Part shown: one piece after another, positions 2,440 through 48,376 of the stretch
How the letters are laid out: every line of letters begins with the position of its first letter
How positions within the stretch are numbered: position 1 is the stretch's first letter
From: Nitrosomonas sp.
GTDB taxonomy: Bacteria > Pseudomonadota > Gammaproteobacteria > Burkholderiales > Nitrosomonadaceae
Length of the DNA stretch: 50,732 nt
Assembly: GCA_008015565.1 (NCBI GenBank)
Contig: SSFV01000001.1
Location: forward strand, 1-50,732
Direction of reading: 5' to 3'
The notes under the pieces: model-generated
Database searches by the model: none
What the model was told of the DNA's origin: nothing
Seen by the model: only the letters and a program-made list of their open reading frames with translations
Program-made: the position numbers and the translations under genes

Positions 2440-3089
2440 ACCGCCAATTTTCCTTGTTTGAGTAATATAATGCGATGCTGTGTATCTTCTAATAGAGATG
2501 CATCATGCGTTGCGATCATTACCGTGACGCCCACCTGATTGAATGATGTGAACAACGCCATAATATCGCGTGCATACTCGACATCTAGGTTACCCGTTGG
2601 CTCATCGGCGATTAAAATGTTCGGCCGATGAACGATTGCGCGCGCAATACATAATCGCTGTCTTTCGCCTCCTGATAATGTAATAGGCATGGATTTTTCT
2701 TTTTTTAATAAACCTACTTTATCGAGTGCTGCACGAACACGGCTAGCCGCTGTTTTGCTGTCAAAGCTACTGATTTGCAACGGTAACAGCACATTATTGA
2801 AAACATTGCGATCAAATAACAATTTATGGTCTTGAAAAATAAAACCGATTTTACGCCGTAAATAGGGAATGGCGCCGAGTTTGAGCCTTGCAATATTTTG
2901 TCCGCTGATAGCGATGGTGCCGGAAGTTGGACGTTCGATTGCTGAAATTAATTTTAACAGCGTGCTTTTGCCAGCTCCAGAATGGCCAGTCAAAAATACC
3001 ATTTCACCCGGTTCTACAGTTAAATCAATATTGTTGAGCGCAACGTAGCCATCCGGATAACGCTTGGAAACATTCTTAAAAACGATCAT
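2436..3089 (-). CDS. ftsE: cell division ATP-binding protein FtsE
   Basis: This 217-residue ABC ATPase has Walker A GHSGAGKST (about residues 35-43), the signature LSGGERQRLCIARA, Walker B ILIADEPTGNLD, and the H-loop ATHD. The start MIVFKNVSKRYPDGYVALNNI is typical of FtsE. It powers FtsX in septal peptidoglycan remodelling. It lies 21 nt downstream of ftsY and overlaps ftsX by 4 nt. Length and motifs are complete. Confidence 0.97.
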   Translation of the reverse strand: MIVFKNVSKRYPDGYVALNNIDLTVEPGEMVFLTGHSGAGKSTLLKLISAIERPTSGTIAISGQNIARLKLGAIPYLRRKIGFIFQDHKLLFDRNVFNNVLLPLQISSFDSKTAASRVRAALDKVGLLKKEKSMPITLSGGERQRLCIARAIVHRPNILIADEPTGNLDVEYARDIMALFTSFNQVGVTVMIATHDASLLEDTQHRIILLKQGKLAV

Positions 3090-3110
3090 GTATTATTTAC
3101 TGGCGGCAGT

Positions 3111-4136
3111 TCAATCAAACATTGCTTCGACAAACTCATTTGCATCAAACGGTCTGAGATCATCTACGCCTTCACCCACGCCCACAAAACGCAACGCAGG
3201 GGGATTTTGCGGATATTGACCCGCAATAGCGGCAACGACGCCACCTTTGGCTGTGCCGTCCAGCTTGGTTAAAACTAACCCCGTTACGCCTAGCGCTTTA
3301 TCGAAGGCTTTAACCTGCGTAATTGCATTTTGTCCGGTATTGGCATCCAGTACCAGCATCACCTCATGAGGAGCATCGGGGATAGCTTTGGCAATGACTC
3401 GTTTTACTTTCTTTATTTCTTCCATTAAATGCAATTGCGAAGTCAAACGCCCGGCGGTATCGGCAAGTACAATATCAATGCCACGTGCTTTGGCAGAGTT
3501 AACGGCATCAAAAATTATAGCTGCGGGATCACTTTTCTTACCTGCCTCGCTATCAGGAGCAATGACGGTAACATTGTTGCGTTCGCCCCAAGCAATTAGC
3601 TGCTCTCGCGCTGCTGCGCGAAAAGTATCGCCTGCAGCCAGCAATACCGAATGCCCTTGCGTTTGAAAATACTTGGCAAGCTTACCTATAGAAGTAGTTT
3701 TTCCCACACCATTTACGCCTGTTATCATAATGATAAAGGGCTTTTGTGTGGTCGTATCCAATGGCCGGACCAACGGCTGTAATAGCGCAATCAGTTGATC
3801 CTTAAGTGCCTGCTTAAGTTGCATCGCGTCGGTTAACGCGTCACGCTTGACCTGTTTGCGCAAATTTTCAAGCAATTGATGCGTTGCATTGACACCCACA
3901 TCGGAAGTTAACAGCATGGTTTCAAGTTCTTCATAAAGCGCTTCATCAATCTTGCCGCCACCGAACAAGCCTGATAGTTGCTTACCCCAGCTTTGCCGGG
4001 TGCGCGCAAGGCCTTGTTTGAGTTTGCTTGCAAAGCTTGTTGACTGACCGGCTGGTGGATTGGAGTCATTATCGGGGGTAGCAGCTGCTTGCGCGGAATC
4101 TGCAGAATCTTTTTTGGATTTAAAAAAACTAAACAT
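3111..4136 (-). CDS. ftsY: signal recognition particle receptor FtsY
   Basis: The 341-residue SRP-receptor GTPase has an acidic/polar N-terminal A region (residues 1-45), the four-helix N domain (about 50-135), and an NG GTPase domain with G1 GVNGVGKTTSIGKLA, the DTFRAAAREQL insertion motif, DTAGR, TKLDG, and the closing GVGEGVDDLRPF. It docks ribosome-SRP complexes at the inner membrane for co-translational insertion. It is the first gene of ftsY-ftsE-ftsX and is divergent from the M16 peptidase gene, so its promoter must lie in the short gap at 4137-4216. Confidence 0.97.
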   Translation of the reverse strand: MFSFFKSKKDSADSAQAAATPDNDSNPPAGQSTSFASKLKQGLARTRQSWGKQLSGLFGGGKIDEALYEELETMLLTSDVGVNATHQLLENLRKQVKRDALTDAMQLKQALKDQLIALLQPLVRPLDTTTQKPFIIMITGVNGVGKTTSIGKLAKYFQTQGHSVLLAAGDTFRAAAREQLIAWGERNNVTVIAPDSEAGKKSDPAAIIFDAVNSAKARGIDIVLADTAGRLTSQLHLMEEIKKVKRVIAKAIPDAPHEVMLVLDANTGQNAITQVKAFDKALGVTGLVLTKLDGTAKGGVVAAIAGQYPQNPPALRFVGVGEGVDDLRPFDANEFVEAMFD

Positions 4137-44133: not shown

Positions 44134-44399
44134 GAAAGCGTATTAAGGTAGAGAAATTCATCGGATGATTCTAACAGAGGAGAAAAGCATCCGGTACATG
44201 GCACCGGATAAGCCAGGTTGATCAATGAACGCTATAATGGAAACATTACATCGCAATTTTCGAACCCGCCAACAATTTCAATAGCGCAATAGGTAAGGCG
44301 AAGAATCAATGAGCGGTCAGAACAGTACATGAGCATAAATATAGTGTCCGGTATTTTAATGAAGCGGTTATACGATTACTTTTTTACGGGAGCTTGCCA

Positions 44400-44966
44400 A
44401 TGGCTAAACCCTCAGCAGCAAAATCTTTACGATCCATTTATCAATTGAAAGTTACTTTGAACCATATCCGTCCGCCGGTATGGCGCAGATTTTTGATCGC
44501 CAGCACGGATACCTTGGCTGATCTGCATCTTGTCGTACAAATCGTGATGGGCTGGACCGACTCCCATCTGCATGAATTTGTAAAAGATGGAGAGCGCTAT
44601 GGCATACCCGATGAGGATTTTCCTTCGGATGTTCACGATGAATCTAAATTCCGCATCGAACAGGTGTTGAAACAGGAAAAAGCTAAGATGCGCTATACCT
44701 ACGATTTCGGCGATGGCTGGGATCATGACGTCGTTCTGGAAAAAATCCTGCCATTTGAAACGCAGACCAAATTACCAACATGCCTTAAAGGCAGCCGCGC
44801 TTGTCCACCGGAGGATATCGGCGGGCCACCGGGGTATGAAATGTTCCTGGAAGCGATCGCCGATCCCGATCACCCAGAGCATGCCGACATACTGGAATGG
44901 CTCGGCGAACCGTTTGACCCCGAACAATTTGATCTGGCGGAAGTGAACGATTTGTTGCACAACTGA
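44400..44966 (+). CDS. plasmid pRiA4b ORF-3-like protein
   Basis: A 188-residue protein starting at the ATG at 44400 after GGGAG. The pRiA4b ORF-3 domain (about 13-165) is clear: IYQLKVTLNHIRPPVWRRF, LADLHLVVQIVMGWTDSHLHEF, TYDFGDGWDHDVVLE, and CLKGSRACPPEDIGGPPGYE. Family members turn up on plasmids, transposons and in genomic islands. Function is unknown. It marks the left edge of island 2. The 266 nt upstream (44134-44399) hold no other gene. Confidence 0.9.
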   Translation: MAKPSAAKSLRSIYQLKVTLNHIRPPVWRRFLIASTDTLADLHLVVQIVMGWTDSHLHEFVKDGERYGIPDEDFPSDVHDESKFRIEQVLKQEKAKMRYTYDFGDGWDHDVVLEKILPFETQTKLPTCLKGSRACPPEDIGGPPGYEMFLEAIADPDHPEHADILEWLGEPFDPEQFDLAEVNDLLHN

Positions 44967-45024
44967 TACTTAGTAAAGCGAGGACGGCACTTGAATCAAT
45001 GTTTCTGTGACAAAGAATCCTGCG

Positions 45025-45405
45025 ATGACGACAAACGATAACAAAACGAACCCTCCCAGCGACAACCGGGAATCACGGCAGGAGATGCTGCTGGATGATG
45101 AATTCGGTCTTGAATCGCAACCGGGTGCTGGAATACCAAAAAAAGAATCTGCTAGTGCCAAGCGTGCAGTGGAGTCCGGAAAAAACAAGAATCAACCATC
45201 CGAAGTACTGAGTTACCGCCACGACGACAAACGCACCAACAATCCGCATGTCGGCATGGTCGACACGCATTCCGACGGTGTCGAGGGTAAAACCGTGTGG
45301 CGCTATGATCCGCATATCGATCCGGCGCTGCAATTCGACAGCCAGCGCGCCACCATCGAAAACCTGATCGACGACTACGATGCATTGGCATCCGGCATAA
45401 TTTAA
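45025..45405 (+). pseudogene. N-terminal fragment of a type III-like DNA methyltransferase (mod)
   Basis: A 126-residue frame (GTG at 45007 or ATG at 45025). After a polar, low-complexity head, the block from about residue 62 (VLSYRHDDKRTNNPHVGMV, KTVWRYDPHIDPALQFDSQ, IENLIDDYDALASG) is what I recognise as the start of site-specific DNA methyltransferases of this class. In intact proteins this leads into several hundred residues of methyltransferase. Here the frame ends two codons later (II, stop). The DPPY and FxGxG motifs are therefore missing. It is cut at about 45396-45399, where AT-rich retron sequence begins. Confidence 0.7.
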
Positions 45406-45529
45406 GTGTGTGGATGAGTTCTAAAAAGGCAGCTTGGATATTGGTAATGTAATTATGAGTATGCATAAAAGAGTGATTATATGAATAACAACAAGTCTGT
45501 ATTCATAGCTCTATACCTTAAAAGATGAA

Positions 45530-46099
45530 ATGACAAAGAAAGAAATTAAAGACTCTATAAAGCAATTTGGAAAAGATCTTAAAAAGGCATTTGGGAAGAA
45601 AAAATATATTGTTTTTCTTTGTGGACCGACATTAGATAGTGCAAATGTAGATGAGGCAGCCAAATTGAGACTGCGACTTAAGACTGAACTTGAAAGTGAA
45701 GATTTTGAGGTTGTGTTAGGAGAAGATGATGGACTTGAAAATCTGAGGAAACGCTACGCTGGAATGGCACATGAAAATGAGCTGGAATTCATTAATAAGT
45801 TCAGTAACTCAGTACTTTTGATTGCATCAAGTGTGGGGTCATTTTGTGAGCTTGGATTGTTCTCGTATCATCATGTACGGCAAAATGCGCGTCATACGGA
45901 TTTTATATTGATTTTAGATGAAAAATATAAGGATGATGTTTCTTACTTAAATGAAGGACCAGCGAAAGCAATAGAAAACTTCGGGAAATTGATACATGGG
46001 AATTTTTCTAATTTTGATACACAACCAATAATAGATCGCCTTCGAACAAGGCGGACTGTTTGGTTTACAGATCCTGCAGGAAAAACAGAAAGCTTATGA
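45530..46099 (+). CDS. retron effector, nucleoside deoxyribosyltransferase-like
   Basis: A 189-residue protein. It has a Rossmann-like layout: IVFLCGPTLDSANV (27-40), FEVVLGED (59-66), and VLLIASSVGSFCELGLFSY (95-113). Glu107 in GSFCELG occupies the place of the catalytic nucleophile Glu of N-deoxyribosyltransferases. In known type II retrons such as Ec86, an NDT-like protein with a winged helix is the toxin held by msDNA and reverse transcriptase. Here the NDT part is alone and the winged-helix part seems to start the next frame, which overlaps by 4 nt (ATGA). Visibly more AT-rich than the flanks. Confidence 0.85.
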   Translation: MTKKEIKDSIKQFGKDLKKAFGKKKYIVFLCGPTLDSANVDEAAKLRLRLKTELESEDFEVVLGEDDGLENLRKRYAGMAHENELEFINKFSNSVLLIASSVGSFCELGLFSYHHVRQNARHTDFILILDEKYKDDVSYLNEGPAKAIENFGKLIHGNFSNFDTQPIIDRLRTRRTVWFTDPAGKTESL

Positions 46100-47604
46100 G
46101 CATCAAGTTTAATGTTCAATTGTTGCTCTACGGACTGGGGGTGATCCAACCTGCGACACCTTTTGAAGTTATCGAATTTCTCCGTCTAATTTATCCCGAT
46201 ATTACGCAATGGCCAGATGAAGAAATGCTTAATCAGATATTCTCTGAGTGGTTAAGATTACGTTACGTAATTATATTAAATAAAGAATACCATCTTCTTT
46301 CGTTGACCTCAGTGGCAAATCTAAGAATGGATTGGAAATTGCGAAAACTTCGCGATAAAGCTAGGCTTACCTTGCTTAGAGAGTTATATGATGCTAGCCT
46401 AAATAGGTCGGAAGTAGCGAAACAGGATTTGGATGGCGATTCGCCATCTTCAGAAAGTAGCACAATTTCACAAGAAGGCACGCGGCCAGTAAATTCTGGC
46501 TCTGCGCCTTCGCGACTAACGTCGACTTGTCACAGCACCAGAATTTACTGGCCGCGAGTCGTTGAGCAACTGAATTCTAAAGTTGGCCTTGGTTCCCAAA
46601 CTTCCGACATTCCTTTTTATCGCTTCAGATATTGTTCCTTTCCAAATCTTAGATTACTTCAAGAAGCAAGCTCAGATTCTCCACTTGAACGAGACATGAG
46701 CCTGTCGCAACTTGCGCTTGCGATTGGCATTTCTCCACGATTATTAACATCATTTACTCACAGGCCCGAAAATCATTACAGATTTTTTGATATTAGTAAG
46801 AAAGGTGGAGGGAAACGTCAAATAGCATCACCACGCTTTTTCCTAAAAACAGTTCAATACTGGATTAAGTCGTATATTTTGTGTCATTTAAAAATTCATG
46901 ATTCTTGTCATGCATATTTGGTTAATAAGTCAATAATTACTAATGCAGAAAAGCATGCCAGAAAGGAATTTGTAGCGAATATTGATATTGAAGATTTCTT
47001 TGGAAGCATAAAAACGGATCATGTTTTTCAACTTCTCAAAAAGAATGGAATAGGCGAAAAGCTCTCAAAAGCCGTCGCACACTTGGTAACCCTCGATGGA
47101 AAGTTGCCACAAGGTGCACCAACTAGTCCTACCATATCAAATGCCTTTTTGTACGAATTCGATAATTCGTTATCAAAAATATCGAATGAAGCAGGTTTAG
47201 AATATTCGAGATATGCTGATGATATTACTATAAGTGGAAGTTCTCGTTCAGCTATAGAGTCGGTAATTTTTGGATGCAGAAACCATCTTTGGAGCAACGG
47301 GTTAAAATTAAATGAAAATAAAACGAGAATTGCAACCTCTCATTCCAGCCAGCGTGTTACAGGATTAGTTGTAAATGAAAAAATACAACCTCCCCGTGAA
47401 TTTCAACGGAGAATCAGAGCAATTTTCCACATAGTCAATAAAAACCCAGAGAGCTATATCGAAAGAATTAGTGAGTTACGCGGATACTATAACTATCTGT
47501 TATCGTTTGATGCAATAAAAAATAGTAGACACCTTCAGAGGTATAGAATGGTAATCAATAAACTTAAGGCGGCAGCAAGGAATAATTCGAGTTCTTTGAT
47601 ATAA
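46096..47604 (+). CDS. retron reverse transcriptase with N-terminal winged-helix region and embedded ncRNA
   Basis: The frame has 502 residues from the ATG overlapping the effector stop. Residues 1-103 look like a winged-helix domain (TPFEVIEFLRLIYPDIT, then a wing RLRYVIILNKEYHLLSL). Residues 104-171 are Ser/Thr-rich and coincide with the retron RNA. Residues 201-502 are a complete retron reverse transcriptase: NAEKH (NAxxH, 283-287), ANIDIEDFFG with Asp297, LPQGAPTSP (337-345), YADD (373-376) and the retron VTG (421-423). The in-frame ATG at 46696 (Met201, MSLSQLALAIG) would give a 302-residue protein, the normal size of such enzymes, though without a clear ribosome site. So it is either a fusion or two proteins. 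Ends 87 nt before the type III res fragment. Confidence 0.9.
   Translation: MSIKFNVQLLLYGLGVIQPATPFEVIEFLRLIYPDITQWPDEEMLNQIFSEWLRLRYVIILNKEYHLLSLTSVANLRMDWKLRKLRDKARLTLLRELYDASLNRSEVAKQDLDGDSPSSESSTISQEGTRPVNSGSAPSRLTSTCHSTRIYWPRVVEQLNSKVGLGSQTSDIPFYRFRYCSFPNLRLLQEASSDSPLERDMSLSQLALAIGISPRLLTSFTHRPENHYRFFDISKKGGGKRQIASPRFFLKTVQYWIKSYILCHLKIHDSCHAYLVNKSIITNAEKHARKEFVANIDIEDFFGSIKTDHVFQLLKKNGIGEKLSKAVAHLVTLDGKLPQGAPTSPTISNAFLYEFDNSLSKISNEAGLEYSRYADDITISGSSRSAIESVIFGCRNHLWSNGLKLNENKTRIATSHSSQRVTGLVVNEKIQPPREFQRRIRAIFHIVNKNPESYIERISELRGYYNYLLSFDAIKNSRHLQRYRMVINKLKAAARNNSSSLI
46407..46608 (+). ncRNA. candidate retron msr-msd RNA, inside the reverse transcriptase reading frame
   Basis: All retron RNA parts can be placed in the right order: a1 GTCGGAAGT (46407-46415), immediately AGC with the candidate branching G at 46417, an msr hairpin GATGGCG-ATT-CGCCATC (46432-46448), a perfect 19-bp msd stem (46481-46499 with 46538-46556), and a2 ACTTCCGAC (46600-46608), exactly complementary to a1. 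About 202 nt in all. Known retrons have this a1-AGC-msr-msd-a2 order, with the msDNA primed from the 2'-OH of the branching G. I see no such structure in 45406-45529, the common position upstream of the effector. Confidence 0.75.
46481..46556. repeat. msd inverted repeat (19-bp perfect stem)
   Basis: CGCGGCCAGTAAATTCTGG (46481-46499) and its exact reverse complement at 46538-46556, separated by 38 nt that contain a small CGAC-TAAC-GTCG hairpin (513-524 offset). A stem this long inside a protein-coding frame is unexpected. It forces the encoded peptide to mirror itself (RPVNSG ... RIYWPR). It fits the reverse-transcribed stem of an msDNA. Confidence 0.95.
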
Positions 47605-47668
47605 GAATTTTTTTCTGAGTGGTATCAGATAACTGTGTAGTTATAGTGCGTAGGAAGTTTTATTTTAA

Positions 47669-48376
47669 ACCTCAGATATCTTCTCAGCATTCAAGCTGTA
47701 CCTGCAAAACGCAGATAGATTCGGCGCCGACAAAGCATTTCTCGCCGTTCAACTGATCCGCATCGTCGAACAATTCCTCAGTAGCGACAAGTTGAACATT
47801 CCGAGCTTGTGGCATCAAGATCCGGTGCGCAGGCAGATTTTATTTGCGTTGAATATGGATACCGTGGTCGGGCATGTGAACCGGTTTGTGGCTTTGCATA
47901 ATACCGAGAAGCTGGAAGCTGTGTTCGATGAGTTGCAGCCGATCGGCTCGACCGCGCGCAGGCGGTCATGGGTAACGACCCGGCCGTGCCAGGCAACGGT
48001 GCGTTCGCAGATCAGCCATGTGGTGTACGACAGTACGTGGGAAACGGTGGTGGCCAATTTGTGTGAAAAAGAACCGCACGTGCTGGCGTGGGCTAAGAAC
48101 GATCATCTGGATTTTGTCATTCGCTATTTGTGGCGCGGTTCTTCGCGCAATTTCGTGCCGGATTATTTGATCCGGTTGAGTAACGGCAAAACGCTGGTGC
48201 TGGAAGTAAAAGGCGTTGACGATGAGCGTAACCGGGTCAAGCGCGCCGCAATGGAGGTCTGGATCAAGACGGTCAACGAACAGGGCGGTTTCGGGCAGTG
48301 GTGCTTCGATGTGGTATTTGAACCAGCGAGAACGCGTGATGCGTTGCTGAGCCATGCAGGATTATCAGGTGTATAA
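47669..48376 (+). pseudogene. C-terminal fragment of a type III-like restriction endonuclease (res)
   Basis: Open from after a stop at 47666-47668 to the TAA at 48374, with no good start codon at its left end (a TTG at 47792 lies inside the homologous part). The product reads KLYLQNADRFGADKAFLAVQ, then LIRIVEQFLSSDKLNIPS, SHVVYDSTWETVVANL, VLAWAKNDHLDFVI, and FVPDYLIRLSNGKTLVLEVKG, the last a PD-(D/E)xK nuclease motif. This matches the end of type III-like helicase-nuclease Res proteins. The helicase part (about 600-700 residues) is missing. It is GC-rich, like the mod fragment and unlike the retron between them. Confidence 0.8.

Follow-up and report, generated by a model that had tools for sequence, protein, structure and literature searches.

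The window, a 50.7-kb stretch of Nitrosomonas sp. DNA analysed here as a whole, carries on its plus strand an NDT-like effector gene (45530..46099, 189 aa), whose product matched the PADLOC profile NDT_II-A (PDLC02929) with an E value of 3.7e-55 and had the Ec86 effector (7v9x_C, E 1.7e-4) as a relative in the PDB. The TGA stop of this gene and the ATG of the following one form an ATGA overlap. The following gene, also on the plus strand (46096..47604), is one open frame of 502 codons that joins a winged-helix (wHTH) domain, a linker encoded by the msr-msd RNA and a retron reverse transcriptase (RT); in the mechanical ORF list, this 46096-47604 frame is started at an earlier TTG, at 46060. Residues 1-493 of the fused protein matched the PADLOC profile RT_II-A (PDLC02940, 477 positions) with an E value of 6.4e-184, the next best model giving 8.3e-79. 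The winged-helix-like domain occupies residues 1-103 (46096..46404), for which AlphaFold gave a confident model with secondary structure elements in the order H-H-H-E-E-H-H, and the RT domain (46621..47601; RVT_1, E 3.6e-25) contains the motifs NAxxH, YADD and VTG, the first and last of which are motifs of retron-type RTs. Alignment of 49 RT sequences revealed that N283, H287 and V421-T422-G423 were invariant and A284 nearly so. Among solved structures, the RT of Retron-Kva2 ranked first and that of Ec86 second by sequence match to the window RT, and the best fold match was the Ec86 RT (7v9x/7v9u). AlphaFold was confident for the RT as well, and pLDDT fell below 50 at residues 104-148 and 161-175, which make up most of the linker. 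A protein search of the source genome showed that only one place matched the fused protein. The features of type II-A, i.e. an NDT gene adjoining the RT gene and a type II-A model as the best one for the RT, are present in the window, and, judged by its sequence, the system is a type II-A retron consisting of NDT effector, wHTH and RT; by analogy with known retrons, it would serve in anti-phage defence through the NDT effector.

The whole msr-msd is located at 46405..46608 on the plus strand, corresponding to about codons 104-170, and pLDDT indicates that the peptide it encodes is a linker that is largely disordered. Its inverted-repeat arms, a1 (46407..46415) and a2 (46600..46608), are complementary at 9 of 9 positions, and between them lie the msr hairpin (46432..46448; GATGGCGA/TCGCCATC, arms 46432-46439/46441-46448) and the msd stem-loop (46481..46556), the arms of which (46481-46504/46533-46556) are 24 nt long and 92% complementary, with a perfect 19-bp core stem at 46481-46499/46538-46556. 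The layout of a retron RNA, with a1/a2 repeats, msr hairpin and msd stem, is thus present in the window, and our analysis confirmed all of these elements as the initial annotation had placed them, at 46407-46608 inside the open frame. Its description of them as the full set was correct for those it listed, but a third hairpin, CAACT/AGTTG, had been overlooked between msd and a2 (46567..46585, arms 46567-46571/46581-46585). Folding of the 216-nt RNA gave a z score of -6.25, with none of 200 shuffled sequences folding equally well.

A covariance model built from the window and seven relatives found a single full-length match in the 50.7-kb window, at 46405-46608 with 166.5 bits; since the window is one of the training sequences, this match demonstrates uniqueness rather than independent detection. 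A second copy of the window RNA, which the initial annotation had named as evidence that would speak against its proposal, was absent from the 50.7-kb window, a result that covers RNAs of the same type. The minus-strand matches of the model were found to sit on the palindromic msd stem and were taken as its reflection. Two flanking regions were inspected as candidate sites of another msr-msd and rejected: 44960-45560, upstream of the NDT gene, contained no more than one arm pair of 14 nt (79%) and another of 8 nt, and 47560-47900, downstream of the RT, gave one 8-nt pair. Searching Rfam at the gathering threshold over the whole window detected one tRNA only, and at E values up to 10 no retron family matched within 46300-46720.

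Fused relatives were collected by scans of genome contigs (L004 and L005), of the family (L086 and L087), of the phylum (L171) and of E. coli (L172-L175), and from viral contigs by an alignment-based scan (L088, L089, L090 and the partial L091). L170 was not counted again because its protein is that of L005, and neither were L088 and L173, whose RNAs are those of L174 and L172, respectively. The loci are not independent: the window is closely related to L087, as are L089, L172 and L174 to one another, and a 39-nt deletion is almost the sole difference between L172 and L174. In all of the first eight fused loci (the window and seven relatives), the linker region folded into a1/a2, msr hairpin and msd stem within the open frame, and the linkers of L171, L172, L174 and L175 folded to the same architecture. 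RNAalifold predicted 31 base pairs from the eight MAFFT-aligned RNAs, 22 of them with double compensatory changes. The same ratio, 22/31, was obtained from a model-fitted alignment of 11 loci including the window; the latter was fitted to the structure of the model and its pair counts therefore lean towards that structure. In the 11-locus alignment, 95.0% of the cells were paired versus 34-48% when the partners were slid by 1-3 columns, and the covariation score was 0.636 versus 0.235 after shuffling (0 of 500 shuffles reached it). By helix, double changes were seen at 4/4 modelled pairs of a1/a2 (helix 1) and at 12/15 modelled pairs of the msd stem (helix 3), and all cells (100%) were paired in the msr hairpin (helix 2) and in the third hairpin (helix 4), whose four modelled pairs, present in 11/11 loci, are among the best-conserved parts of the RNA. 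The covariance model also found the held-out L171 among 11 sources (63.6 bits, E 5.9e-17), as well as L172 and L175, both of which are relatives of training members. When arms of different loci were combined, 3 of 106 cross-locus pairs (mean score 16.3, maximum 32.5) reached the weakest native helix, which is the 9-bp arm of the window with a score of 23. An NDT_II-A gene was located upstream in 10/10 relatives examined (7 fused and 3 split) and in L171 in addition.

The AGC branch-G context following a1 is conserved in retrons. An AGC directly after a1, to which the initial annotation had drawn attention, is indeed present in the window; it is not a conserved mark, being found at that position only in the window and the closely related L087 (2/11 loci), while in L004 and L175 it lies within the arm. 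It therefore carries little weight, and was discarded as a hallmark of msr-msd for these loci. Its lack of conservation favours the explanation that the RNA acts within the mRNA as a structured element for regulation or processing, instead of being a template for reverse transcription. Against this stand the layout of a1/a2, msr hairpin and msd stem, which is that of retron RNA, a position equal to that of the structured RNA in the split relatives described below, and the finding of no other candidate nearby in the window; we regard this explanation as quite improbable.

In canonical retrons, the ncRNA lies outside coding sequence. This layout was not followed in the window and 10 fused relatives, in which the RNA was wholly contained in a frame without a single stop. 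An alignment of homologous loci had been suggested in the initial annotation, and it revealed that the frame between the two domains stays open in the fused relatives while the stems are constrained. In eight loci, the other plus-strand frames held 1-7 stops each, and the chance of an open frame in shuffled sequences was 0.02-0.10 per locus; the product for the eight loci, about 1e-10, assumes independence and is an overstatement. The initial annotation also described a complete 302-residue RT from Met201 (46696). As the start of a separate RT, Met201 was rejected because S181, which precedes it, was invariant in 49/49 sequences and because no ATG, GTG or TTG occurred between a2 and the conserved N-terminal motif of the RT in 7/8 loci, an in-frame TTG before the motif being found in L089; Met201 is thus a non-conserved start with conserved RT residues ahead of it. 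Each of the four fetched E. coli copies is annotated as a single CDS (1500, 1500, 1461 and 1485 bases with stop). Translation straight through the RNA would be the simplest reading of these sequences. With compensatory changes at 22/31 pairs and the frame open in the fused relatives, the proposal that the msr-msd resides within a translated wHTH-RT frame is supported as far as sequence allows, and the initial interpretation as a whole is supported in part.

A protein search returned 3,014 matches, the best 120 of which were listed. Of these 120, 110 were at least 460 aa long and had an uninterrupted frame, with a linker of 58-77 aa when aligned with the window, and SPS and YWPR recurred as linker motifs in the protein alignment. 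Among the 10 shorter ones, P0010 was an internal ORF of the window itself, P0034 and P0112 had no starting Met, P0096 was named partial, and P0088, P0091 and P0115 were short yet retained the linker; the remaining three (P0064, P0067 and P0114) have an internal methionine as their first residue, and could be genuine exceptions that consist of the RT only, or artefacts of their contigs. Complementarity of the arms was examined at the codon level in 91 representatives of 111 proteins (under 80% RT identity), with the register taken from the pairing of the window and offsets tolerated; column-by-column residue tables lost register and were left out. Three-codon complementarity between a1 and a2 (first two bases) was possible in 65/91 (shuffled mean 21.8, maximum 32) and five-codon pairing of the msd in 83/91 (shuffled mean 44.3, maximum 54), and in both cases 0 of 1000 shuffles reached the observed mean score. 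The three-codon version for the msd did not discriminate, as 470 of 1000 shuffles scored as high. Codon complementarity above that of the shuffles indicates that the RNA helix can be read from the proteins without the DNA in hand. Other RTs with long N-terminal extensions were considered as independent embeddings and set aside, as many of them resemble, by eye, the N-terminal domains of other retron types.

These data bear on the alternative that the msr-msd is functional but translation of the RT begins internally, past the msr-msd, with the open frame as a mere by-product. Met201 is available for this purpose in the window, the three matches among the 120 listed that begin at internal methionines do so at equivalent positions, and L089 has its TTG just before the RT motif. 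Nevertheless, the invariant S181 lies before Met201, 7/8 loci offer no start codon between a2 and the motif, the fused frame is stop-free in 11 loci whereas the other plus-strand frames, in eight loci, have stops, and the length difference between L172 and L174, 39 nt, is a multiple of three. Internal initiation is therefore considered unlikely.

Comparison of third bases at codons for shared amino acids revealed a higher identity in the RNA segment than in the coding flanks for close pairs: 60/62 versus 74/88 (wHTH) and 243/297 (RT) for window-L087, 56/56 versus 60/90 and 178/278 for L089-L172, and 40/48 (83%) versus 23/51 and 77/166 (45-46%) for L172-L175. Between the window and L087, 2 synonymous and 5 non-synonymous changes made up the 7 differences in the 201 nt of the RNA segment, and the flanks differed by 0.084 and 0.094 per nt, with synonymous/other ratios of 15/11 and 60/34. 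For distant pairs, third-base identity in the RNA was raised in window-L086 (13/19), window-L004 (10/16), L086-L004 (13/20) and window-L171 (8/20), but without a clear rise in window-L005 (8/17), window-L089 (11/22) and window-L090 (9/20), a mixed excess as expected if stems change by compensation. When the L175 operon was compared by megablast with five other E. coli copies, only 190 nt aligned (query 1053-1242, i.e. L175 3042-3231), matching the stretch at 3043-3230 where the covariance model places the L175 RNA. The third-base, window-L087 and megablast results together suggest that it is chiefly the RNA that is under constraint, while an open frame is maintained. Coding-type conservation, which the initial annotation regarded as contrary to its proposal, was not what we found, synonymous sites being suppressed and not free in close pairs. 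L172 and L174 differ essentially by one in-frame loss of 39 nt at the msd tip. The structure prediction fits a peptide that would be no more than a floppy linker.

One may argue conversely that the segment is conserved solely as a protein linker and that its codon composition happens to make the RNA fold, in line with the frame being open in 110 of the 120 homologues listed and with the recurring SPS and YWPR. This explanation is strongly disfavoured, and the least probable of those weighed here, by the compensatory changes at 22/31 pairs, the conserved third bases in close pairs, the low-confidence linker in the AlphaFold model and an intergenic counterpart of the RNA in split relatives.

Three such split loci, L006 (Salipiger), L018 (Pararhizobium) and L007 (Sphingomonas), have the order NDT, wHTH ORF, structured RNA and RT ORF as in the window, but with wHTH and RT as separate ORFs and the RNA between the genes. 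The separate wHTH ORFs were identified by an HMM of the window's wHTH (E 2.3e-8 in L006, 2e-7 in L018 and 2.1e-4 in L007), and the RNA region has stops in all three plus-strand frames in each locus; in L006, a2 overlaps the start region of the RT, and in L007, a1 overlaps the end of the wHTH ORF. The covariance model of the fused RNAs gave no match in L006, L018 and L007, so that the identity of their RNAs as msr-msd-like is based on folding and position. When 155 fetched RTs were placed in a midpoint-rooted tree, all 12 from fused genes (counting L091) formed one clade with a support of 0.962, and these together with L006, L018, L007, L023 and L165 formed the next clade with a support of 0.715. 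In L023, a small ORF and arm-like repeats are followed by an RT ORF, and no such layout was recognised in L165. Judged by the sequences, the fused form probably arose once, when the stop and the start around an intergenic RNA were lost, the direction presumably being from split to fused.

Among known systems, the type II-A retrons defined by PADLOC RT_II-A (PDLC02940) and NDT_II-A (PDLC02929) share the effector family, the RT family and the fusion with the window, which is a member of them. As PDLC02940 spans residues 1-493 of the window protein, the wHTH-RT fusion itself is already known; the PADLOC type II-A profiles are silent on the position of the RNA, which in the window is inside the RT gene as a linker. 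Retron-Eco1 (Ec86, type II-A) has an RT and an effector that are both related to those of the window, but its DNA-binding part is in the effector, according to the PDB molecule name, whereas the wHTH of the window is fused to the RT. The ncRNA of Ec86 lies outside coding sequences. It is conceivable that the window belongs to a known type II-A subtype with an RT-fused DNA-binding domain, for which specialists have already recorded the ncRNA position, since PADLOC has models of both the fused RT (PDLC02940) and the short form of NDT (PDLC02929). We consider this somewhat unlikely, given the Rfam search of 46300-46720 without a retron match and a partial literature search, comprising portions of PMC12548924, PMC8989520, PMC12405507 and PMC12483538 among others and leaving the main classification and census works outside its scope, in which no msr-msd placed inside an RT frame was found.

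Built on the observed RNA structure, open frame, synonymous-site constraint, single clade and split sister forms, the main reading, to which we assign a probability of about 0.82, is that of a type II-A retron with the msr-msd wholly in the wHTH-RT frame, in which one transcript is translated through and the same RNA is folded and copied. Because RNA structure and open frame are both kept, one transcript is probably both the mRNA of the RT and the template of msDNA. A ribosome reading through the msr-msd would produce the wHTH domain, a floppy linker and the RT, while msr-msd RNA free of ribosomes would fold and be copied into msDNA by the RT. By analogy with Ec86, which has the closest RT by fold, the RT would prime on msr and copy msd. 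In known retrons, host RNase H1 strips the template during synthesis, as described in PMC8989520, and a complex of RT, RNA and RT-DNA restrains the effector until phage attack, as described in PMC12548924. Priming, copying and removal of the template by RNase H would proceed likewise in the window system. Since the ribosome needs the stems open and the RT needs them folded, translation and reverse transcription would compete, and a used template could no longer encode RT, by which msDNA output would be tied to, and limited by, RT expression. Such self-limiting control would follow logically from a template located within the RT mRNA. A more far-reaching version, that of a self-consuming dual-use gene, is held tentatively, at slightly less than an even chance: every msDNA would be derived from an RNA that encodes the RT as well, RNase H would sever this mRNA where the wHTH half joins the RT half, translation and copying would be mutually exclusive on each molecule, the levels of msDNA and RT would set each other without a separate regulator, and the retron RNA would be written in codons with the peptide as a neutral spacer.

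Retron RNA is called non-coding, and searches may look for it outside genes, by which an embedded msr-msd can be missed. A clade with msr-msd in the RT frame would offer a natural example of an RNA that is used both as mRNA and as template for reverse transcription, and its occurrence in E. coli brings it within reach of laboratory tests. The in-frame shortening of the msd by 39 nt suggests that msd length can be changed if the frame is kept, which is relevant to retron engineering.

The element has a scattered distribution, being present in 3/125 genomes of the family, 1/369 sampled from the class and 3/398 sampled from the phylum, with the own genome counted each time; a scan of the order at 1e-60 gave 2/200 (the own genome and one RT-only match), and a further scan of the order gave 1/399. 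These taxonomic sets overlap, and the own genome is in every one. In tblastn searches, 55 plasmid records and 21 phage records matched, none having a place that covered 80% of the query. The first viral scan returned two distant RTs; with P0120 as the query no relative was found, and with L089 only L089 and L088 were found again. In E. coli, the element was detected in 8/5,426 genomes. The copies L172-L175 are like that of the window in having a fused RT (486-499 aa) with an embedded RNA, and in L172, L174 and L175 the NDT effector is present as well. Unlike the window system, they are on integrase-bearing, P4-like elements and their msd stems are longer or shortened. All four fetched loci sit between an integrase gene and psu/ogr-like genes; psu, ogr/Delta and Icd-like genes are presumably marks of P4-like satellites, and the host elements are read as such satellites.

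Comparison with L087, a relative from a genome of the same genus that also carries the fused wHTH-RT gene with embedded RNA, revealed that positions 45200-48341 of the window correspond to L087 614-3745, a block of about 3.1 kb with 88% identity that includes the retron, and more matching DNA was found upstream of this common block. The gene upstream of the retron (44394-44966) encodes a pRiA4b ORF-3-like protein (PF07929, E 3.1e-69), and for the downstream gene (47702-48376) the similarities to models of type III restriction enzymes were all weak (E 0.0043) and lay close to the C-termini of the models.

Three 6-bp palindromes were located at 46510-46577 within the predicted msr-msd RNA: TCGCGA (46510) and GTCGAC (46521), both in the msd loop region, and GAATTC (46572). 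According to PMC12548924, a phage adenine methyltransferase is the trigger of two type II-A retrons that contain GATC in their ncRNA. Inspection of the window's retron RNA sequence revealed no GATC.

Effector variants were observed in two other fused relatives. In L171 (89-1501), the retron effector is chimeric: an NDT_II-A domain is preceded in the same protein by an esterase-like N-terminal part (DUF676; DUF626_VIII in PADLOC). In L005 (1721-3001), the NDT effector has an N-terminal extension, in which trypsin-like and LmuA matches, both weak, were found.

Four E. coli copies of the fused element, L172, L173, L174 and L175, lie in satellite-like elements, with an integrase on one side and psu on the other; L173 and L175 are adjoined by tRNA-Sec. 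Because L172 and L174, otherwise near-identical, are separated by a 39-nt in-frame deletion at the msd tip, their RNAs may, judging from sequence, give rise to two natural msDNA lengths.
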